A stretch of DNA of 64,000 nt from Streptomyces sp. NRRL F-525 (GTDB lineage Bacteria > Actinomycetota > Actinomycetes > Streptomycetales > Streptomycetaceae): the NCBI RefSeq assembly GCF_000716605.1, contig NZ_JNXE01000028.1:1-64000 (forward strand). Reading direction: 5' to 3'. The notes under the pieces were generated by a model that worked only from the letters and a program-made list of their open reading frames with translations, did no database searches and had not been told where the DNA came from. The position numbers and the translations under genes are program-made. Shown piece by piece: positions 2 to 63,998 of the stretch. The number at the start of each line of letters is the position of its first letter. Position 1 is the stretch's first letter.

Positions 2-862
2 CCGATGTTCGGCTACATGGGACTGGTCGCGGCCACGATCTCCATCGCCGGCCTCTCCGTGACCGTGTGGGCCCACCACATGTACGTCACCGGCGGAGTG
101 CTCCTGCCGTTCTTCTCCTTCATGACGTTCCTCATCGCCGTGCCAACAGGCGTGAAGTTCTTCAACTGGATCGGAACGATGTGGAAGGGGTCCTTGAGCT
201 TCGAGACCCCGATGCTCTGGGCCACCGGCTTCCTGATCACCTTCACCTTCGGTGGTCTGACCGGTGTCATCCTGGCCTCGCCGCCGATGGACTTCCACGT
301 CTCGGACTCGTACTTCGTCGTCGCCCACTTCCACTACGTGGTCTTCGGCACGGTCGTGTTCGCGATGTTCTCCGGCTTCCACTTCTGGTGGCCGAAGATG
401 ACCGGCAAGATGCTCGACGAGCGCCTCGGCAAGATCACCTTCTGGACGCTGTTCATCGGCTTCCACGGCACCTTCCTGGTCCAGCACTGGCTGGGTGCCG
501 AGGGCATGCCCCGTCGTTACGCGGACTACCTCGCGGCCGACGGCTTCACCGCCCTGAACACGATCTCGACGATCAGCTCCTTCCTGCTCGGCCTGTCGAT
601 CCTGCCGTTCCTCTACAACGTGTGGAAGACGGCCAAGTACGGCAAGAAGGTCGAGGTCGACGACCCGTGGGGCTACGGCCGTTCGCTCGAGTGGGCGACG
701 TCCTGCCCGCCGCCGCGGCACAACTTCCTCACCCTGCCGCGGATCCGCAGCGAATCCCCGGCGTTCGACCTGCACCACCCGGAGATCGCCGCTCTCGACC
801 AGCTCGAGAACGCGCATCACGGTGACAAGGCCCTCACTGGCGGCAAGGAGGCGGGCAAGTGA
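2..862 (+). CDS. ctaD: Cytochrome c oxidase subunit I, C-terminal part (5' end outside window)
   Basis: Carries the haem-copper centre of the aa3 terminal oxidase, which reduces O2 to water and pumps protons in the cytoplasmic membrane. The frame is open from the first bases of the window, so the N-terminal half lies upstream. Visible signatures are the WAHHM segment, whose paired histidines bind CuB, and the AHFHYV segment, which holds the haem a3 and haem a axial histidines. About five membrane helices remain, followed by a hydrophilic tail containing [13 protein letters not shown], typical of actinobacterial CtaD. Its TGA stop overlaps the GTG start of ctaF by four bases, so the two are translationally coupled. 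Confidence 0.97.
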
Positions 863-53343: not shown

Positions 53344-53982
53344 TCACCAGGGATCTTGGTCCGGTGGCCGTCCGGGCGGGTGCCCCACCTGTGAGGCGAG
53401 CCGTTTCTCCTCCCGGCGCTGGGCTCTGCGGCGCAGGTAGCGCCGGATCCGGGAGACCAGGAAGAACAGGACCGTGAGCCCGGCCACCAGCAGCACGGCC
53501 GCGATGATCGCCGCCGCCTGGGGATGGAACATCGCGAACGAGACGATCCCGCCGACGCCGAGATCCTCCGCGAAGCTCATGATCACGTTGCTGAACGGCT
53601 CCGGCGAGGTGTTGATCGCCATCCGCGTCCCGGTCTTGACGGTATGGCTGGCCAGCGCCGACGAACCGCCGATCAGGCCCGCCACCACGTCGTTCATGGA
53701 ACCGCTGTGGCCCGCGAGCACCGCCCCGACCCAGGCCCCGGCGGCCGGCCGGATCACCGTGTGCACGGAGTCCCACAGGGAGTCGAGGTAGGGGATCTTG
53801 TCGGCGACGGACTCGCACAGGAACAGGACGCCCGCTGTGATGAGGACCTCAGGGCGTTGCAGCGACTCGGGGACCGCGTCGGTCACTCCGGTCGCGCCGA
53901 AGATCCCGAGCAGCAGCACCACCGCGTACGCGTTGACGCCGCTGGCCCAGCCGCTGGTGAAGACCAGGGGGAGTACGGACAC
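53344..53982 (-). CDS. DUF4126-type membrane protein
   Basis: The 212-residue product has about five helices and the DUF4126 features TSGWASGVNAYAVVLLLG, a central DVVAGLIGGSSALASHTVK and VIMSFAEDLGVGGIVSFAM, followed by a basic tail (RRYLRRRAQRREEKR). Function unknown. The GTG start at 53982 is chosen because TACTAT ends seven bases upstream (leaderless); a GTG six codons earlier is the alternative. A MacR-like site lies about 55 bases upstream. Confidence 0.82.
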   Translation of the reverse strand: MSVLPLVFTSGWASGVNAYAVVLLLGIFGATGVTDAVPESLQRPEVLITAGVLFLCESVADKIPYLDSLWDSVHTVIRPAAGAWVGAVLAGHSGSMNDVVAGLIGGSSALASHTVKTGTRMAINTSPEPFSNVIMSFAEDLGVGGIVSFAMFHPQAAAIIAAVLLVAGLTVLFFLVSRIRRYLRRRAQRREEKRLASQVGHPPGRPPDQDPW

Positions 53983-54037
53983 GGAGGCGATAGTAACCAC
54001 TCGGCAACATGGCGTCCTGGGCCTGAGTGCGTACGGC

Positions 54038-54340: not shown

Positions 54341-54372
54341 GTGACCTGTCGTCAGGTGTGACCTGTTGTCAG
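54341..54372 (+). repeat. Direct repeat at the tetR 3' end
   Basis: GTGACCTGTCGTCAG (54341-54355) and GTGACCTGTTGTCAG (54358-54372), one mismatch, 17-base period. The second copy runs over the tetR stop. Confidence 0.6.
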
Positions 54373-54998
54373 CGGCCGCCGCTGACCCGCCCCTGGAGCA
54401 GCCGGGACAGCGCCGCGTGGACGTCGTCCAGGGAGCGCTCCGGCTGGAACGACTGCCAGTCCAGGGCGGCCACCAGGACCATGCCGACCAGGGCGGCCGC
54501 CGTCAGCCGGACATCGATCTCGGGGCTGAACTCACCGCCCGCCACGCCCGCGTGCAGCACGTCCTCGATGGCCGCGTTCACCTGCTGGCGCACGACCATG
54601 AGCGTGGGCTGCCAGGAGCGGTTGGTGCGCCACAGCTCGGCCACGTAGAGCTGGGTGAAGGACGGGTAGCGGGCGATGAAGCCGAGGCCCGCGCGGATCA
54701 TCGCGTCCAGGGCGTCGACCTTGCTGCCGCCGTCCCGGGCCGTCTGCTCGGCGGCCTCTCTCAGGGAGGCGGTGAGGAGGCCGACGCCGTGCCGCAGCAG
54801 CTCCTCGAAGAGAACGGACTTGCTGGCGAAGTTGTAGTAGACGGTGCCCTTCGCGACCCCGGCACGCTCGGCGATCTCGTCCACCGTGGTGGCGGAGAAG
54901 CCCTGTTCGGCGATGAGCGTGACGGCCGCCTCGTAGAGCTTCTGCCGGGTGGCCTCGCGGCGCGTGCTGCCGCCCGACGGGGTGCTGCTGCTTTCCAT
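54369..54998 (-). CDS. TetR/AcrR family repressor
   Basis: The 209-residue product has an N-terminal HTH (ATTVDEIAERAGVAKGTVYYNFASKSVLFEELL, about residues 38-70) and a C-terminal ligand-binding domain. It is the third gene of an ABC-YhgE-TetR unit and probably represses that unit; the palindrome at 57847 is the probable operator. The start is the ATG at 54998; a GTG five codons earlier is possible. The gene begins 63 bases after the YhgE/Pip stop. Confidence 0.9.
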   Translation of the reverse strand: MESSSTPSGGSTRREATRQKLYEAAVTLIAEQGFSATTVDEIAERAGVAKGTVYYNFASKSVLFEELLRHGVGLLTASLREAAEQTARDGGSKVDALDAMIRAGLGFIARYPSFTQLYVAELWRTNRSWQPTLMVVRQQVNAAIEDVLHAGVAGGEFSPEIDVRLTAAALVGMVLVAALDWQSFQPERSLDDVHAALSRLLQGRVSGGR

Positions 54999-55060
54999 GG
55001 GCCTGATTGTCACAGGCCCGGTCCCCGCCTCGGGCACGGGTGCCGAGGTCCCGCGCGCGC

Positions 55061-57145
55061 TCACAGGCTCAGCTCCGGGTGCAGCCGGTCCAGCGTCCAC
55101 ACCTGGCGGCGGCGGGCCGACAGCGCGGTCAGCGCGAGCGCCCCCGCGGTGAAGGCGACGAGCACCACGCACGCGTGCCACACGGGTCCGAGGCCACCGC
55201 CCGTGATGAGCCTCCGTAGGGCCTCGACGACGTAACTCATCGGCAAGAAGGGGTGGATTGCGTTGAAGAAGCCGGGGCTGGTCTGCACCGGGTAGGTGCC
55301 GCCCGCCGACGTCAACTGGAGCATCAGCAGGGCGAGTACGAGGATCCGGCCCGCCGCCCCGAAGCGTGCGTTCAGCCACTGGACGATGGCCCCGAAGCAC
55401 GCCGTCACGAGGAAGAGGAAGCCGATCGTGCCGGCCGCGCGCACCATCTCCAGGCCGATCGCCCAGTGCAGTACGGCCATCAGGGCCACCGTCTGGAGCA
55501 CCCCGACCGCGACCACCGGCAGCCAGCCCGCGAGCGCGATCCGCCAGGCCGAGGCGCCGGCGGCGAGCGCGCGCCGGTTCATGGGCGCGATCAGCATGTA
55601 GGCCACCATCGCGCCCACCCACAGGGACAGCGGGATGAAGTACGGGGCGAATCCGGTGCCGTAGTTGGGCGCCTTGTGGAGGTCCTGGGAGGCCAGGTGG
55701 ACCGGGTCGGACATGACCCCGGTGCGCTGGTCGCGGTCCTGCTTGTCGTAGTCCGGGATCTGCGCGGCGCCGTCGTGAAGGCCACCGGCCAGCTTCCCGG
55801 AGCCGTCGACGAGCTTGTACAGGCCGCCGCTGAGGTCCACCGCGCCGGTCTTCAGCTTGCCGACGCCGGTGTCCAGGTCGGTGGCGCCGGTGCTGGCCGT
55901 GCCGAGCCCGGCGTGCAGGGTCTTGGCGCCCGCGGCGACCTTCGAGGCACCGTCGTTCAGCTTGTCGACCTTGGCCACCGCGTCGTCGAGGTCCTCGGAG
56001 AGATGCGGGGCGTGGTCGGCGAGGGCCTGGGCCTGCGTCTGGAGCGTGGCCAGGTTCGCGTCGAGCTTCTTCAGGTCGCCGTGCTGATCGACGACCAGGG
56101 TGTTCACGTCGTCGGCGACCTTCGCCACATCGGAGGCGGCCGTAACGGCCTTCTTCAGGTCGGGGCAGGCGTCATCCTTCAGGACGACGCTTTCGCAGCG
56201 CGCCTTGTAGACCTTGTCCAGAGTGTCCGAGGCCGCGTGCGCGCCCTTGGCGGCGACCGGGGCCGTCTTCACCAGGACGTCGAGGTTGGCGCGGATCGTC
56301 TTGGCGGAATCGGCCACCAGTTGGGCGGTGTCCCCGATGGTCTTCTCGTTGTCCTTCAGGAAGGGGCCCGCCTTGTCGGCGACCCCGTTGACCGTGTCCG
56401 CGAGGGTCTGCGTCCCCGCCGCCACCTGCGCCGAGCCGTCCGCCAGGTTGCCCGCGCCCGTGTCGAGCTTCTTCAGGCCCTTGGAGAGCTTGCCACTGCC
56501 CTTCTTGGCGTCCCTCAGGCCGTCGGCGAGATCCTTGGAGCCCGCCTCGGCCGTCCCGATACCGCCCTTGAGCTTGTCGGCGCCGTCGGCCGCCTTCACG
56601 GTCTGCCCGTGGATGTCGGAGAACGACACGAAGATCCGGTCGAGGAAAGTCCGCGAGGCCTTCGTGGACGCGGCCGAGCGCACCTCGCTGAACACCGTCC
56701 GGGAGATCTGCCCGACGATGTAGTTGTTCGCGTCGTTCGTCCGCACCTGGAGCGCGCCCGTCTCCGGGGAGTCGCCCGCACTGGAGGAGACGCGTTTACT
56801 GAAGTCGGCCGGCATGGTCAACGACAGGTAGTACGTGCCGTCCTCGACGCCCTTCCGCGCGGCGGCCGCACTCACCTCGTGCCAGTCGAACGTCCCGCTG
56901 TCCCGCAGCCCCTTGGTGATGTCCTCGCCCGCGGTGACCTTCTTCCCGTCGGCACTCGCCCCCTTGTCGTCGTTGACGAGCGCCACGGGGATGCGGTCCA
57001 GGCGGCCGTACGGGTCCCAGAAGGACCACAGGTACAGGGCGCCGTAGAGCAGCGGCAGCAGCAGGAGGGCGACGAGCGCGGCGCGCGGCAGCTTCCCCCT
57101 GCCGAAGCGCTTGAGCTCAAGCGCGGCCAGTCGTGGCGTGTGCAT
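55061..57145 (-). CDS. YhgE/Pip-family membrane protein
   Basis: The 694-residue product has one N-terminal helix (about 22-42), a large extracytoplasmic region of coiled-coil-like repeats (about 165-480; e.g. DGADKLKGGIGTAEAGSKDLADGL and LKTGAVDLSGGLYKLVDGSG), and five C-terminal helices (about 505-680). It belongs to the family of phage-infection protein Pip and EsaA, related to RND/MmpL-like or ABC-2 permeases. Its start overlaps the ABC gene by 29 bases, so the two are co-expressed. Likely the membrane partner of the degenerate ATPase; substrate unknown. Confidence 0.93.
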   Translation of the reverse strand: MHTPRLAALELKRFGRGKLPRAALVALLLLPLLYGALYLWSFWDPYGRLDRIPVALVNDDKGASADGKKVTAGEDITKGLRDSGTFDWHEVSAAAARKGVEDGTYYLSLTMPADFSKRVSSSAGDSPETGALQVRTNDANNYIVGQISRTVFSEVRSAASTKASRTFLDRIFVSFSDIHGQTVKAADGADKLKGGIGTAEAGSKDLADGLRDAKKGSGKLSKGLKKLDTGAGNLADGSAQVAAGTQTLADTVNGVADKAGPFLKDNEKTIGDTAQLVADSAKTIRANLDVLVKTAPVAAKGAHAASDTLDKVYKARCESVVLKDDACPDLKKAVTAASDVAKVADDVNTLVVDQHGDLKKLDANLATLQTQAQALADHAPHLSEDLDDAVAKVDKLNDGASKVAAGAKTLHAGLGTASTGATDLDTGVGKLKTGAVDLSGGLYKLVDGSGKLAGGLHDGAAQIPDYDKQDRDQRTGVMSDPVHLASQDLHKAPNYGTGFAPYFIPLSLWVGAMVAYMLIAPMNRRALAAGASAWRIALAGWLPVVAVGVLQTVALMAVLHWAIGLEMVRAAGTIGFLFLVTACFGAIVQWLNARFGAAGRILVLALLMLQLTSAGGTYPVQTSPGFFNAIHPFLPMSYVVEALRRLITGGGLGPVWHACVVLVAFTAGALALTALSARRRQVWTLDRLHPELSL

Positions 57146-57809
57146 CGGCCTTCTCCGTCCCCTCGGTGGACACCGCTACGACAGTCGTCCCGGAATCGGC
57201 GAGCGACCTCAACAAGTCCCAGATATCGGCCCGTTCGGCATCCGACAGCTTGAGATCGACGTCGTCGACCCCGAGCAGTGCCGGCCGCCCGATGAGCGCC
57301 AGCGCGATGGACAGCCGCAGCTCCTGCGGCCGTTCCAGATCCCGTACGGCGGTCCGCGCACCCTTGGGCAGCGCCTCGCGGTCGAGCCCGGCGGCGGTCA
57401 GCGCACGCTCGATCCGCAGGCCCGCCTCGACGGCCCGCTCGGAACGCGGGCGCAGCAGTCCGCGCACCGAGTCCCCGAACCGCCGTTGCAGCAGCGCCCG
57501 TTCGCGCAGATGCTCGCCGACGGTCAGTGCCGGTTCGAGGTCGGTGACCCCGGCGACATTGGCCAGCGCGCTGACCCGGCGTACGGCGGCCGCCTGCTTC
57601 GGGAGCGTCAACCCGCCCACGGCGACGGTCCCTTCGGACGCCTTCATCCGCCCGGTGAGCGCGAGCAGCAGGCTCGTACGCCCGGACCCGGACGGCCCTT
57701 CGACGGCGATCAGCGACCCGGGCCCTGCGTCCAGGGAGATCCCCCGGAACGCCCAGCCGCGCGGCCCCTCGACCCCGAAGTCCTCGGCCGTGACACCGAC
57801 CCCACCCAC
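57117..57809 (-). CDS. Degenerate ABC-type ATPase
   Basis: The 230-residue product has the order of an ABC ATPase, but three key motifs are altered. Walker A is GPSGSGRTS (Arg44 replaces the Lys). The signature is LERPQ (158-162) instead of LSGGQ. Walker B is ALLGVDDVD, with Asp183 in place of the catalytic Glu. Hydrolysis may be very weak or absent. GTG start at 57809. It leads an operon with the YhgE/Pip gene and tetR; the promoter with embedded operator is 27-55 bases upstream. Confidence 0.82.
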   Translation of the reverse strand: MGGVGVTAEDFGVEGPRGWAFRGISLDAGPGSLIAVEGPSGSGRTSLLLALTGRMKASEGTVAVGGLTLPKQAAAVRRVSALANVAGVTDLEPALTVGEHLRERALLQRRFGDSVRGLLRPRSERAVEAGLRIERALTAAGLDREALPKGARTAVRDLERPQELRLSIALALIGRPALLGVDDVDLKLSDAERADIWDLLRSLADSGTTVVAVSTEGTEKADAHATTGRA

Positions 57810-57835
57810 GGTTCCCCGCCCCCTGCCCGCACAGC

Positions 57836-57864
57836 GAACTATTTGAACTGACTGGTCAGTGCAA
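57836..57864 (-). promoter_or_regulatory. Promoter of the ABC-YhgE-TetR operon with embedded operator
   Basis: On the minus strand TTGCAC (57864-57859), 17-base spacer, TAGTTC (57841-57836). The spacer contains the palindrome ACTGAC-TG-GTCAGT (57847-57860), typical of TetR operators. Occupancy would block RNA polymerase directly. Confidence 0.75.
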
Positions 57865-57994
57865 AAAGTAACCCGAACCTTCGATCGAAGCAAAAGTGCA
57901 GGTCAGAACGGATTGTCAGTGCCATACCCCACGATGGGTCACATACGGCACTACCTGACTGGGCGTGCCGTCACACGACGACAGGAGGTTCGTC

Positions 57995-58534
57995 ATGGCC
58001 AACTCGTCCGCAGCCGCCGCCCGTCGGCGCCGCGCCTCCGGCCCTGCCCCCTCACTGACCGGCCCGGCGAGCGACGTGCACCCCGTGCTCCGCCGGGCCA
58101 CGGCCCCACCAGCCGCCCTCGACCTCCTCGCCCAGGCCCGCGCCGGACTGGACGAGGCAGCCGTCCTCGAGACGTCGAACGAGCGCTACGCGACAGCCCA
58201 CCTGGCCGCCCTGCGCACCGCCGCCGCGGTCCTCGCCGCGCGCGTCCAGCCGGAGCCCACGGCCCGGCGCCGCGGCCGTATCCGCAGCGCCTGGGAAGTG
58301 CTCCCCGAGATAGCGCCCGAACTCACCGAGTGGAGCGCCCTGTTCGCCTCCGGCGCCCGGCGCCGCGCGCGGGCCGAGGCGGGCATCCAGGGCGCGGCGA
58401 CCCGCCGGGACGCCGACGACCTCATACGCGACGTGGCGATGTTCCTGCGCCTGGTCGAGCGCATGCTCGTCCTCCAGCCGGTCCTGCCCCAGCCACGCCA
58501 GGACCCGGAGCGGCCGGGGGACCGCGCGGGGTGA
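57995..58534 (+). CDS. SAV_6107-type HEPN protein
   Basis: The 179-residue product is mostly alpha-helical, resembling the SAV_6107 HEPN family of Streptomyces. AALDLLAQARAGLDEAAVLETSNERYATAHLAALRTAAAVLAAR forms the first helices. A canonical HEPN RxxxxH catalytic motif is not evident, so RNase activity is doubtful. AGGAGG lies six bases before the ATG at 57995. It is divergent from the ABC operon. Confidence 0.78.
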   Translation: MANSSAAAARRRRASGPAPSLTGPASDVHPVLRRATAPPAALDLLAQARAGLDEAAVLETSNERYATAHLAALRTAAAVLAARVQPEPTARRRGRIRSAWEVLPEIAPELTEWSALFASGARRRARAEAGIQGAATRRDADDLIRDVAMFLRLVERMLVLQPVLPQPRQDPERPGDRAG

Positions 58535-59842: not shown

Positions 59843-60241
59843 GTGCCGCTCTCGGAGCACGAGCAGCGAATGCTTGAGCAGATGGAGCGAGCGCTGTACG
59901 CCGAAGACCCCAAGTTCGCGACAGCGCTCGAAGGAAGCGGCCTGCGCACGTACACCCGGCGACGGGTCTACCAAGCAGTGGCCGGCTTCCTCGTAGGTAT
60001 CGCGCTCCTCATCGCCGGCATGGTCACGCTGCAGATTTGGGTCAGCGTGGTGGGATTCCTCGTCATGCTGGGCTGTGCGGTTCTCGCCGTGACCGGTTGG
60101 CGCAAGGCCCCCAAGCCTGGCGAACAGCCCGCCGCAGGCGCTCCGCAGGCCCGCAGCCAGGGACGGCAGCGGCGCTCGGTGATGGATCGTATCGAGCAGC
60201 GCTGGCAGCGCCGCCGCGACGAGCAACAGGGCGGCCAGTAG
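59843..60241 (+). CDS. DUF3040 membrane protein
   Basis: The 132-residue product begins PLSEHEQRMLEQMERALYAEDPKFA, the DUF3040 signature, followed by two helices (about 45-65 and 68-87) and a basic C-terminus (RQRRSVMDRIEQRWQRRRDEQQ). Widespread in actinobacteria near the division and cell-wall cluster; function unknown. GAGGAG precedes the GTG at six-base spacing. Confidence 0.92.
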   Translation: MPLSEHEQRMLEQMERALYAEDPKFATALEGSGLRTYTRRRVYQAVAGFLVGIALLIAGMVTLQIWVSVVGFLVMLGCAVLAVTGWRKAPKPGEQPAAGAPQARSQGRQRRSVMDRIEQRWQRRRDEQQGGQ

Positions 60242-60292
60242 CAGCACCCGGCCCCGCGCGAGCAGCACACGCGGCGCTCCTCGAAGACGAGT

Positions 60293-60327
60293 GAGGGGGT
60301 GACCACCGGACCGGTGGTCACCCCCTC
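60293..60327. terminator. Bidirectional terminator between convergent genes
   Basis: Seventeen-base perfect stem GAGGGGGTGACCACCGG / CCGGTGGTCACCCCCTC with one central base, between the DUF3040 gene and the transglutaminase gene. Confidence 0.9.
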
Positions 60328-60336
60328 CCGTATGCC

Positions 60337-62718
60337 CTAGCCCTGCTGCCCGGACGGCTTGCGCAGGGTCGGCCGCAGCGCCGCCGCCCGTGCCGTCACC
60401 GACGTCCGCCAGGCCGACAGCGCCCACACCACCCGGACGGTCGAGCGCGGGGCGACCAGTGCGCGCAGCCGCGTGGAGCGGCCGGCCGTGTCCTGGAACC
60501 CGACGACCACCCGCCGCACGTCCTGGGCGAGCCCCGCCGCGAGCTGCGGCCGGGGCGCGTACAGGACCTGCTCCACGGCGTCCGCCACCCGGTGCACCGA
60601 GGCGGCCGACGGCGGGTCGAGATGCCCGAGGTCCACGATCCGCGCCGCCGCTCTGCGCGGGGTCAGCGAATCGTCGGGCGAGATCCCGAAGTCCCAGGCG
60701 GTATCGGTCAGTTCCTCCCACACGGCCAGCGTGTGGAGGGCCGCCTCGGACTCCGTACGACCGTGCGCGCCCAGCCGTACGGACCGCATCCGGGTCCGCC
60801 ACAGCATCGGCGAGAACGGGATCGTCAGCAGCAGGAGCGCGCCAAGGCCCAGCGTCACCATCTGCACGTACCACCAGGGGCCGCGCGGGTCGCCGCCCGC
60901 CGCGATCGCCGGGGCCTGGCTCGCGCAGCCGTCCAGCTTCCGCAGCTGGGCCGTGCAGCTCTCGCTCGCCGAGGGGGCCGCGGAGGGCGCCGTGCTCGTC
61001 GAGGCCGAGGGGAGGGCCGGGTCCGGGACATCGCTGCCGGGGGTGGTCGACTGGGTGTACGACGGCACCGAGCCCCGGTTGGGGGTCGGCTCGAAGCGGG
61101 TCCAGCCCACGCCCTCGAAGTACAGCTCGGGCCAGGCGTGCGCGTCCTTCAGGCCCACGGACACCGTGCCGTCCGCCTCCGGGGTGCCCGGGGCGAAGCC
61201 CACCGCGACCCGGGCCGGGATGCCCAGGGTGCGGGCCATCGCCGCCATCGCGAAGGAGAAGTGGACGCAGAAGCCCTGCTTGTCCTTCAGGAACTTGGCG
61301 ATCGCGTCACGGCCGGTGCCGACGTCCACCTGGGTGTCGTACTGGAAGCCGCCGGTCACCGCGAAGTAGTCCTGGAGCTTGACCGCCTCCTCGTAGTGAC
61401 TGGTCGAGCCCGCGGTGACCTTGCGGGCCGTGTCGGCCACCACCGAGGGCAGCGACTTGGGCACCTTCGTGTACTGGTTCCGCAGGGTCGCCGACGGCTC
61501 CGGTGCCGTGGCCAGCTGCTCCGCGGTCGGCTGTACGTCCAGGCTGTTGACCGTGTAGGTCGCGCCCCGCGTGTTCTGGCCGTGGTCGCCCACGACCGTC
61601 ATGCCCACGGGTTCGTAGCGCCAACTGCCGTCGATGCTCACGTGGCTGGGCGGGTACGGCATCGGCAGCCAGTCCTGGGCGTACCAGTCCGCGGCCGAGA
61701 TCCGGGTCTGGATCTCCGAGCGCTTGATGTCGGCGCCGAGGCCGGTCGGGGTGGGGAACTGGTTCGGCACACCCTGGATGTGCCGCTGGGACGGCTTCCA
61801 GGTGGTGCCGTCGAAGTCGTCCAGGGACACGATCCGCAGATACATGTCCGAGATGTCGTTCGTGTTGGTGCGCACGGACAGGACCTGGCGGTTCTCGTCC
61901 ACGTTCAGGCTGTCGCGGAGCGAGACCAGCGGGTTGACCGCGGAGATCGTGCCGCCGCTTCCGTTGCCCGAGCCCACGCCGGTCCCGGCGGCGTCCAGCA
62001 GGCCGCCCGAGATGGTGGGCAGCGGCAGCAGGGCGATGGCCATCGCGACCGCGCCGATCCGCCGCCCGGTGCGGACCGGGGCGAGCGGGCCCGAGGAGTC
62101 CGAGCCAGGGGTGGTGCGCGGTGCCCCGCCGAAGACGCGGCCCCACTGCGCGAGCCGGTCCCGGCCCTCGGCCAGCAGCAGCATCAGGTAGCCGGCGGCG
62201 GCGAGCAGGAACCACAGCCAGCTGACACTGCTCTCGGACAGTCCGGCGGCGACCGAGTACAGCGCGAGCAGCGGCAGTCCGGCCGGGGCCGCGCTGCGGA
62301 AGGTGACGGCCAGGGTGTCCACCGCGAGACCGATCACCAGGACACCGCCGATGAGCATGAGGCGGATGCCGTCGTGCAGCGGTGCCGGGATCGCGTACCG
62401 GGAGACGTCGTCGGAGCCCTCCCGCAGCAGGTCCGCGAAGTGCTGGAAGGCCTCGGGACCCGGGACGAACCCGGCGAGGGCCTGCGCGTGCGCGAAGACC
62501 AGGGTCAGCATCAGCAGCGTGACCAGGGCCTGCGCCGCGACGGTCAGCGGCCTGGCCAGCGGCACCCGGCGGGTCGCCGCGCCGACGCCGGTCTGGATCG
62601 CCAGCATGAAGGCGGCCTGGATGATCCAGGTCGCCGGGGAGACCAGGGGCAGCATCGCGCAGGACGCCAGCAGTGTGGCCACCCAGGCGCAGATCGCCAG
62701 TCGTGCGCGCCCGCTCAT
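60337..62718 (-). CDS. Transglutaminase-like membrane protein (TgpA/DUF3488 type)
   Basis: The 793-residue product has six N-terminal helices (to about residue 250), an extracytoplasmic transglutaminase domain, a Ser/Pro/Thr-rich linker, one helix near 625 and a cytoplasmic DUF4129-like tail. The catalytic Cys is in QGFCVHFSFAMAAMA (near 482), His in DAHAWPELYF and Asp in the following strand. ATGA overlap with the DUF58 gene sets the start at 62718, with GGAGGG upstream. With DUF58 and a MoxR ATPase this forms a known cell-envelope gene set; the MoxR gene would lie outside the window. Confidence 0.9.
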   Translation of the reverse strand: MSGRARLAICAWVATLLASCAMLPLVSPATWIIQAAFMLAIQTGVGAATRRVPLARPLTVAAQALVTLLMLTLVFAHAQALAGFVPGPEAFQHFADLLREGSDDVSRYAIPAPLHDGIRLMLIGGVLVIGLAVDTLAVTFRSAAPAGLPLLALYSVAAGLSESSVSWLWFLLAAAGYLMLLLAEGRDRLAQWGRVFGGAPRTTPGSDSSGPLAPVRTGRRIGAVAMAIALLPLPTISGGLLDAAGTGVGSGNGSGGTISAVNPLVSLRDSLNVDENRQVLSVRTNTNDISDMYLRIVSLDDFDGTTWKPSQRHIQGVPNQFPTPTGLGADIKRSEIQTRISAADWYAQDWLPMPYPPSHVSIDGSWRYEPVGMTVVGDHGQNTRGATYTVNSLDVQPTAEQLATAPEPSATLRNQYTKVPKSLPSVVADTARKVTAGSTSHYEEAVKLQDYFAVTGGFQYDTQVDVGTGRDAIAKFLKDKQGFCVHFSFAMAAMARTLGIPARVAVGFAPGTPEADGTVSVGLKDAHAWPELYFEGVGWTRFEPTPNRGSVPSYTQSTTPGSDVPDPALPSASTSTAPSAAPSASESCTAQLRKLDGCASQAPAIAAGGDPRGPWWYVQMVTLGLGALLLLTIPFSPMLWRTRMRSVRLGAHGRTESEAALHTLAVWEELTDTAWDFGISPDDSLTPRRAAARIVDLGHLDPPSAASVHRVADAVEQVLYAPRPQLAAGLAQDVRRVVVGFQDTAGRSTRLRALVAPRSTVRVVWALSAWRTSVTARAAALRPTLRKPSGQQG

Positions 62719-63998
62719 GCCCATCCCTCCCCGAGGCCGGTCGCGGTGATGCCGTTGCGCTCCCGGTCGGCCTGTTGCCACAGATCGGTCAGGGACGCGC
62801 CGCGCGGCACGCCCACAGCGGTCCAGCCCGCGTCGCGCAGCATCCGCAGCCGCTCCTCGGGCTCGTCCCCGGGACCGGGGACGTCGGTCGACTCACGCAC
62901 CCAGCCGTCGCTGTCCAGCACGAAGGCGAGGGCGCCCCCGCTGCGCTGGCGCATCCGCGCGACCACCGCGGCCTGTTCCTCGTCCAGGTCGCCGAAGAAG
63001 GCCACCAGCAGCCCTTCGTTCCCGCTGCGCAGGACGTCGTAGGCGCGGGACAGGCCCGAGCCGTCCGAGTGGTCGATCACCGCGAGGGTGTCCATCATCA
63101 GCCCGGCCGCGTCCGCCGACTCCTGGCTCGCGCCCGCGAACCCGTCGGCGTCCTGGCCCGGCACCGAGTTGCCGGTGTCGCTCAACAGCCGTACGGAGAA
63201 GCCCCGTTCCAGCATGTGCACCAGGACGGAGGCGGCGCCGGAGACGGCCCACTCGAAGGCGGAGTCCGGGCCCTGGCCCGCGAAGGCGATGCCCCGGGTG
63301 TCGAGCAGGACCGTGCAGCGGGCGCGCTGGGGCTGCTCCTCGCGGCGCACCATCAGCTCGCCGTAGCGCGCGGTGGAGCGCCAGTGCACGCGGCGCAGGT
63401 CGTCGCCGTAGCGGTAACCGCGCGGGATCACGTCGTCCTCGCCCGCCAGGGCCAGCGAGCGGTTGCGGCCGTCGCCGTAGCCCTTGGCCTCGCCGCTGAG
63501 GCGGACCGGGGGGAGGGCCTCCACGCGCGGGATGACCGTGAGGGTGTCGAAGGTCGAGAAGGAGCGGGTCAGTTCGCACATCCCGAAGGGGTCCGTCAGG
63601 CGGAGCTGGAGCGGGCCCAGGGGGTAGCGCCCGCGCAGGTCGGAGCGGACCCGGTAGGACACCTCGCGCCGGCCGCCCGCCTCGACCCGGTCCAGCACGA
63701 AGCGGGGGCGCGGGCCGAGCACGTACGGCACCCGGTCCTGGAGCATCAGCAGGCCCGTGGGCAGCCGCGAGACGTTGTCCATCCGGAGATGGACGCGGGC
63801 CTCGGAGCCGGCGGGCACGCGCGCGGGGGAGAGCCTGCGGCTGCCCGCGACCCGGTAGCGGGTGCGGTAGAGCACGGTCGCGCAGACCAGGGGCAGCACC
63901 GCCAGCAGCAGTCCGACCCGGAGCAGATCGCTCTGCCCCAGGACGTACGCGCAGACCGCGGCGGCGATACCGGCGGCCAGGAAGGAGCGTCCACGGGT
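62715..63998 (-). CDS. DUF58 protein (5' end outside window)
   Basis: The frame is open to the window edge, so the start lies beyond 64000; 428 codons are visible including the stop. Two N-terminal helices are seen (SFLAAGIAAAVCAYVLG and VGLLLAVLPLVCATVLY), followed by a domain with the DUF58 core DVIPRGYRYGDDLRRVHWRSTARYGELMVRR and a von Willebrand-like region starting CTVLLDTRGIAF. In the VWA site DTRGI replaces DxSxS. Usually encoded with MoxR and a transglutaminase protein, as here. Confidence 0.92.
   Translation of the reverse strand, partial: TRGRSFLAAGIAAAVCAYVLGQSDLLRVGLLLAVLPLVCATVLYRTRYRVAGSRRLSPARVPAGSEARVHLRMDNVSRLPTGLLMLQDRVPYVLGPRPRFVLDRVEAGGRREVSYRVRSDLRGRYPLGPLQLRLTDPFGMCELTRSFSTFDTLTVIPRVEALPPVRLSGEAKGYGDGRNRSLALAGEDDVIPRGYRYGDDLRRVHWRSTARYGELMVRREEQPQRARCTVLLDTRGIAFAGQGPDSAFEWAVSGAASVLVHMLERGFSVRLLSDTGNSVPGQDADGFAGASQESADAAGLMMDTLAVIDHSDGSGLSRAYDVLRSGNEGLLVAFFGDLDEEQAAVVARMRQRSGGALAFVLDSDGWVRESTDVPGPGDEPEERLRMLRDAGWTAVGVPRGASLTDLWQQADRERNGITATGLGEGWA

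Follow-up and report, generated by a model that had tools for sequence, protein, structure and literature searches.

The 64,000-nucleotide stretch analyzed here, referred to as the window, covers positions 1 to 64,000 of contig NZ_JNXE01000028.1 of Streptomyces sp. NRRL F-525, whose genome amounts to 10.9 Mb. It harbors an operon encoding, in order of reading, an ATP-binding cassette (ABC)-type nucleotide-binding domain (NBD) protein, a YhgE/Pip membrane protein, and a TetR-family regulator, preceded by an operator and a predicted promoter (Table 1). A preliminary description of the locus had reported the three genes, and they are present at this place, all on the minus strand. It had them overlapping or nearly touching: the NBD and YhgE genes overlap by 29 bp (57117-57145), while the YhgE-TetR spacing of 62 bp fits the second term only loosely.

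Table 1. Features of the operon and its surroundings (window positions)
Feature	Position	Strand	Remarks
ABC-type NBD gene	57117..57809	minus	230 aa, GTG start; PF00005 45.7 bits (cut-off 25)
YhgE/Pip gene	55061..57145	minus	694 aa; TIGR03061, TIGR03062, TIGR03057, PF12698
TetR-family regulator gene	54369..54998	minus	209 aa; TetR_N 66.2 bits, TetR_C_24 33.9 bits
Operator, 26 bp	57841..57866	minus	TTTTGCACTGACCAGTCAGTTCAAAT; departs once from consensus palindrome
Predicted conserved promoter TTGCTT-17-TACTTT	57865..57893	minus	pattern in 82/94 orthologous regions
SAV_6107-like HEPN protein gene, divergent neighbor	57995..58534	plus	PF18726 124.2 bits

The NBD protein and its association with YhgE

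An ortholog of the NBD (E <= 1e-30) is found in 328 of the 392 genomes of the genus, and the loci of named organisms with close orthologs are nearly all from Streptomyces. A total of 120 loci were read: 80 named Streptomyces loci that are the closest relatives by design (best 80 of 148), S. lincolnensis and S. canus among them, 20 whole Streptomyces loci drawn from the 328 NBD-bearing genomes, and 20 loci of other class members. The figure of 100 Streptomyces loci is an upper bound, since the sets overlap (L084/L120, L085/L121, L086/L163). The NBD gene adjoins the YhgE gene in all 120 loci and TetR follows in 114, tblastn leaving it undetected in 5 of the 120; gene order is retained in 100/100 Streptomyces loci and in 14/20 loci outside the genus. 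In locus L078, TetR stands between two NBD-YhgE units, which rules out its reading as a locus with TetR upstream; the first NBD of L078 is presumably broken or mis-sequenced, as its match spans three frames. The arrangement of two units around one TetR occurs in three genomes (L078, L067/L309, and L291/L325, the latter two being genomes G505 and G754).

The association extends through the class. In a sample of 118 genomes, an NBD-like gene or an MMPL-fused NBD tail lies directly upstream of 26/26 over-cut-off YhgE places, three of which (L224, L225, L227) were recognized by reading open reading frames (ORFs) and one (L229) as an MMPL-fused tail devoid of a Pfam match. A search of 394 genomes returned a further 80 non-genus YhgE places outside this earlier reading (G567, at a contig end, being excluded), with the NBD directly upstream in 67 and not in 13. 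Among the 13, seven are in regions where another YhgE gene occurs (three pairs counted twice each, plus L338), L326 and L352 are cut by contig ends, L350 and L351 directly follow an MMPL ORF that by eye seems to end in a remnant, and nothing was recognized upstream of L306 and L336. Beyond the class but within the phylum, YhgE genes form close pairs in three genomes, tentatively Coriobacteriia; no NBD lies beside the pairs in L238 and L239, and L240 is ambiguous. An NBD therefore does not seem indispensable to YhgE, in keeping with a role for the NBD other than that of a motor. Close YhgE pairs devoid of a recognized NBD (L238-L240, L340/L342, L344/L348, L345/L346) may represent heterodimers.

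The window NBD exhibits the PF00005 fold, with all five catalytic motifs replaced. Its Walker A motif reads GPSGSGRTS (Lys to Arg), its signature RPQELRLS, and its Walker B motif ends in GVDD (Glu to Asp), and it possesses neither the switch His nor the Q-loop Gln. A motif census, aligned to three canonical NBDs of the window genome, extends these replacements to the 100 Streptomyces loci: the Walker A Lys is Arg in 100/100, the catalytic Glu is Asp in 99/99 aligned sequences, the Q-loop Gln is Gly in 99 and Asp in 1, the switch His occurs in 0/99 aligned, and in the LSGGQ signature Ser is replaced by Glu in 96 and the first Gly by Arg in 99. Outside the genus, 101 NBD entries were compared (67 later and 34 earlier ones, at least one gene, L078/L276, being counted twice and the fragment L288 included). 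At the Walker A position, 12 of them carry Lys, 53 carry Arg, and the other 36 have neither; the catalytic Glu is found in 2 of the 101, in none together with the Walker A Lys, and none of the 101 reads LSGGQ at the signature position. In a second sub-family, homologous to the window NBD according to hhalign (probability 99.6, E 8e-25, 196 columns), the P-loop is largely gone and reads AETEQRPT or similar. Ten distant NBD-like proteins were run against Pfam, with ABC_tran over its cut-off in three and no family in another three. PADLOC reports weak matches of the NBD to mad3 and mad8 only.

A GR[M/L/F/V] motif following the P-loop helix is retained (Gly in 96/101, Arg in 99/101, two entries having gaps), whereas Y, Q, and L are found at this place in the three canonical NBDs. 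In the window NBD the motif reads GRM, its Arg being residue 54 as numbered from the GTG start. The ratio of nonsynonymous to synonymous substitution rates (dN/dS; a simple Nei-Gojobori count in a high-GC genome, which constrains synonymous rates) spans 0.16-0.32 in the NBD, compared with 0.21-0.31 in YhgE (ten comparisons each), and does not support pseudogene decay of the window NBD. Because the NBD ratios resemble those of YhgE, the GR[M/L/F/V] motif is kept, and the catalytic motifs are lost, selection appears to act on a shared role of the NBD and not on its chemistry. In strain MBT53 (L010/L107), a TAG codon lies inside the NBD gene, and YhgE and TetR still match over their length.

To judge from its motifs, the NBD is a conserved pseudo-ATPase, and in all likelihood not a hydrolytic motor; the preliminary description had called it non-canonical, and the departure goes further than it noted. 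The same description had entertained an exporter. A conventional ABC-2 exporter of drugs or lipids, still hydrolyzing ATP in spite of odd motifs, would agree with the PF00005 and ABC2_membrane_3 matches over cut-off and with the P-loop glycines, Thr, and Walker B Asp mostly retained in Streptomyces. TetR control is moreover typical of exporters. However, the Lys, Q, LSGGQ, Glu, and His elements are all replaced, both sites of an NBD homodimer would be degenerate since there is a single NBD gene, related NBDs that accompany this type of membrane protein have lost the P-loop pattern, and the adjacent YhgE pairs of L238 and L239 have no neighboring NBD. Given that degeneration of the ATPase site extends throughout the family, an ABC exporter in the ordinary sense is unsupported, and we regard it as improbable. 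The retained P-loop glycines, Thr, and Walker B Asp also suit a nucleotide-sensing switch, in which the NBD would bind ATP without hydrolysis and gate YhgE by the energy state of the cell. This is less improbable but still unlikely, as 36/101 non-genus NBDs have neither Lys nor Arg, which makes nucleotide binding unlikely as the shared function, and several have no P-loop pattern at all.

The NBD profile matches 3244 database proteins at E 1e-20; the protein searches covered the best 120 of these 3244, the best 120 of 5600, and 92 listed matches. In view of the motif losses in the entries compared, the 'ATP-binding' names given to members of this family call for caution.

Operator, promoter, and the TetR regulator

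The palindrome ACTGAC-TG-GTCAGT singled out in the preliminary description is present at 57847-57860 and forms the center of a longer conserved operator of 26 bp (consensus TTTTGNACTGACNNGTCAGTNCAAAA). Its 14-bp core is exact in 99/100 Streptomyces loci, with one mismatch in the remaining one, and the full site is perfect in 66/100. The window genome contains one exact core and, among the matches listed, none with one mismatch. At two mismatches or fewer, 65 sites occur genome-wide compared with 45 for a reversed control pattern, so that only the near-exact form is informative. In upstream stretches shuffled by letter, a control preserving letter content only, the core appears with at most two mismatches in 0.5% of 2400 trials, as compared with at most one mismatch in 100/100 real Streptomyces loci. 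Outside the genus, the operator (at most one core mismatch) lies upstream of the NBD in 13/15 loci with TetR and in 1/5 without it. The two TetR-bearing exceptions are L078, where the first unit is preceded by a perfect site, and L070, without a site. Nine operon-bearing genomes have the exact core once each, except one genome with two.

The promoter first proposed, TTGCAC-17-TAGTTC, does occur in the window; however, it recurs in no more than 2 of the 94 orthologous upstream regions (those with ACTGACCAGTCAG within the locus stretch examined). Its TTGCAC belongs to an operator arm (85/94) and has two bases inside the palindrome. A TTGNYY-17-TANNNT pattern is located immediately upstream in 82/94 regions, in the window as TTGCTT (57893-57888) and TACTTT (57870-57865), and this places the operator at the predicted transcription start. 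We infer that transcription starts within the operator, an arrangement that simple repression would predict. The regulator combines a helix-turn-helix (HTH) with a conserved palindromic operator at the promoter of its own operon. TetR control, as the preliminary description had it, is well supported on these comparisons, because the operator is conserved and near-unique, spans lineages, and accompanies the controlled genes; TetR very probably acts on the 26-bp site. Conservation of the intergenic region shared with the HEPN gene continues well past the operator (57867-57980, around GTATGGCACTGACAATCCGTTCTGACCTG), perhaps as the HEPN promoter. Just ahead of tetR, TGATTGTCACAGG (55000-55020) recurs by eye in L248 and L254, and less so in L249 and L252, and is possibly the tetR promoter.

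Among the nearest PDB matches of TetR are 6azh, KstR2, and FadR. FadR/KstR2-like TetR regulators of acyl-CoA metabolism are thus among the nearest models and structures; the window protein stays below the curated cut-offs, with 68.9 bits out of the 200 required by the FadR model NF053878, and does not qualify as a FadR-like acyl-CoA regulator. The recognition region AERAGVAKG is nearly constant in 18 operon-linked TetRs and the window protein, even where the ligand domain is less than 40% identical, which matches the constant operator.

Of the 64 genus genomes devoid of the NBD, the first 20 were inspected. Nineteen are also without YhgE at E 1e-20, genome G010 having a divergent one, and 11 retain TetR at E 1e-40 (L248-L257, L259). 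The expectation of the preliminary description that the three genes stay together therefore holds for NBD and YhgE, adjacent in 120/120 loci, and in part fails for TetR. No operator with at most two mismatches was seen at the 11 orphan-TetR loci, L250 and L251 ending shortly past TetR; genome-wide, an exact core is absent from 8 of these 11 genomes and lies at another place in the other 3. The DNA-binding region of the five closest orphan TetRs is identical to that of the window TetR. In L248, L249, L251, and L252, the alignment with the window stops in the TetR-YhgE spacer (55015-55029) and resumes just past the operator (57872-57893), with an 86-bp NBD scar remaining in L249. By this alignment, YhgE, NBD, and operator were lost together in these four loci.

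The YhgE protein, MMPL transporters, and a lipid-related role

YhgE comprises an N-terminal transmembrane helix, an N-terminal extracytoplasmic domain, a long helical stalk, and C-terminal ABC-2-type transmembrane helices (PF12698, ABC2_membrane_3, 99.3 bits). It belongs to the YhgE/Pip family as described earlier (TIGR03061, 197.6 bits for a cut-off of 96.15; TIGR03062, 239.6 bits for a cut-off of 102.2), while the kinship with EsaA claimed alongside is only distant (58.4 bits with TIGR03929, for a cut-off of 122). The stalk carries Leu-x-x-Gly heptads (TIGR03057), and AlphaFold2 (AF2) secondary structure predicts residues ~126-442 as helical with low confidence. As an uninterrupted helix of ~100 residues measures ~15 nm, the reach through the wall proposed for this ectodomain may be true only in part.

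A type VII secretion component, like EsaA/YueB, would account for the distant likeness to the EsaA N-terminal model, and PMC3701619 discusses the B. subtilis YhgE as a YueB/EsaA paralogue. The score nevertheless stays below the EsaA cut-off, none of the five window proteins run against Pfam is a secretion protein, and this assignment is scarcely credible. A main effect in nature as a phage receptor or DNA-entry factor appears very improbable. According to PMC4999554, Enterococcus PIP is required for phage DNA entry, and the joint loss of YhgE and NBD in some Streptomyces could follow from phage selection. However, the ectodomain (residues 126-442) has no strongly hypervariable block, its majority-residue frequency being 0.80 overall and 0.68 in the lowest 40-aa window (281-320) for 96 sequences that are mostly close relatives, and an entry role would leave the operator and the NBD partner unexplained.

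A link to lipids is suggested by further observations. In L074, L079, and L080, an MMPL transporter ends in the NBD as its C-terminal domain, and the gene that comes next is YhgE; one 959-aa chain beside YhgE matches Pfam MMPL (1.7e-90) and ABC_tran (8.5e-12). Such fusions also occur in 7 of the 67 later loci, and a search with the fused NBD as query returned 92 proteins, 91 with an MMPL domain, the named sources being Aeromicrobium, Nocardioides, and Mobilicoccus. ORFs longer than 1000 aa considered as NBD-YhgE fusions proved to be MMPL-NBD fusions with YhgE as a separate next gene. A 708-aa metagenome protein (P0325) displays MMPL, ABC_tran, and YhgE-type matches around a garbled middle and may be a sequencing artefact. 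In Saccharopolyspora hirsuta, Table 2 of PMC9782250 includes among 28 cholesterol-raised genes a YhgE/Pip gene (F1721_04135, 3.82-fold), for which its authors propose lipid export, and an MMPL gene (F1721_04140, 3.33-fold); we infer from the consecutive locus tags that the two are neighbors. Excerpts of two other reports add that isolates which had lost their sensitivity to ginkgolic acid carried mutations in an Enterococcus YhgE gene, Fur overexpression having an effect and none being reported there for YhgE (PMC8754111), and that a YhgE/Pip gene lies upstream of Mce genes in Mycobacterium avium (PMC12584985). The lipid response, one of several possibilities offered at the outset, gains support from the fusions and the published cholesterol response. 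Handling of lipophilic molecules by the module has about an even chance of being correct, and an MMPL transporter as physical partner in Streptomyces is rather doubtful.

Together, these elements would form a TetR-repressed, probably lipid-responsive envelope module that is not an ATP-driven pump, a reading to which we give equal weight for and against as a whole, its ligand, substrate, and MMPL partnership being conjectural. TetR would bind the 26-bp site until released by a lipid-like ligand (acyl-CoA, a sterol, or a membrane-active amphiphile), upon which YhgE and the pseudo-ATPase would be made. The pseudo-ATPase would sit on the cytoplasmic face of YhgE, at its ABC-2 membrane fold, serving assembly or nucleotide sensing and not acting as a motor, with the YhgE stalk reaching into the wall. 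Without hydrolyzing ATP, the complex might then help to transport lipophilic molecules or to sequester them, energy, where any, coming from a proton-motive MMPL partner of the resistance-nodulation-division (RND) type.

Several observations weigh against this lipid-responsive module. Apart from the Lys replacement, the Streptomyces NBDs have an intact P-loop, and the Walker B Asp is present in 99/99, so that nucleotide binding is likely and slow hydrolysis possible; in the census, based on three canonical NBDs, certainty is lowest for the Q- and H-loop columns. The flanks examined around the 100 Streptomyces loci (up to ~7 kb) showed no MMPL relative, and 3/20 non-Streptomyces loci have one, all as fusions; the window type shows neither an MMPL gene in the operon nor an MMPL fusion. 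L306 and L336 (2/80 places) have no NBD, second YhgE, or MMPL upstream. The AF2 models of YhgE, one from a single sequence and one from 34 rows at 77-96% identity, are poor (mean predicted local distance difference test, pLDDT, of 52.7 and 50.5), too poor for a fold search. Lastly, since TetR is kept without the operon in the 11 genomes mentioned above, it has, or had, another task.

Related systems and neighboring genes

The module is made of known families, and their pairing is without description in the literature searched: among titles and abstract openings of open-licence literature, none was found that concerns a degenerate NBD accompanying YhgE/Pip or joined to MMPL in one protein, and the part of PMC5417439 at hand contains nothing on YhgE. 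The window protein shares both terminal domains and a heptad-repeat ectodomain with the YhgE/Pip family (TIGR03061/TIGR03062; TCDB PIP family 9.B.74; B. subtilis YhgE, Enterococcus PIP). The B. subtilis YhgE gene presumably has a TetR neighbor as well. No NBD gene is known to stand beside the Firmicute members, unlike here, where the degenerate NBD lies upstream in 26/26 and 67/80 places. EsaA/YueB of type VIIb secretion has a related N-terminal domain and a similar topology according to PMC4999554, the window YhgE remaining below the EsaA model cut-off. ABC-2 exporters with a DrrA-type NBD resemble the pair in their ABC2_membrane_3 and PF00005 matches. DrrA is the best NCBIfam match of the NBD (56.5 bits), which nonetheless falls short of the 312.45 cut-off and misses the catalytic residues. 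Finally, the MMPL (RND) transporters that end in an NBD, most of them from Aeromicrobium, have the same NBD type adjoining a YhgE gene. In contrast with these fusions, those of the first set keeping the Walker A Lys, the Streptomyces NBD is a separate gene with no MMPL near.

In Firmicutes, YhgE/Pip proteins are phage receptors and secretion parts. A selected pseudo-ATPase partner, MMPL-fused in some lineages, suggests that the YhgE fold needs no ATP hydrolysis and may handle lipophiles in concert with an RND pump. The operator would provide a clean element for a reporter-based ligand screen. It is conceivable, though unlikely, that the whole represents an undescribed class of envelope lipid-handling systems of Actinomycetes, with YhgE/Pip on a pseudo-ATPase bearing a near-invariant Arg, an MMPL-energized ABC/RND hybrid, and a lipid-sensing TetR switch.

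The HEPN gene, which shares its intergenic region with the operon, is retained in several genomes after operon loss. Past it (59843-63899) lie DUF3040-like, transglutaminase, and DUF58-like genes, which we take to resemble the edge of the dcw (cell-division) cluster. A DUF4126 membrane protein gene (53347-54024) is found downstream of tetR, and near tetR in many, not all, Streptomyces loci. PMC5775266 gives a reverse transcription (RT) primer for an SCO2100-SCO2101 transcript of S. coelicolor. This primer matches the tetR 3' end (54390-54409) with one mismatch, a second one having at least four, and the small RNA scr2101 may thus sit at the 3' end of the operon.

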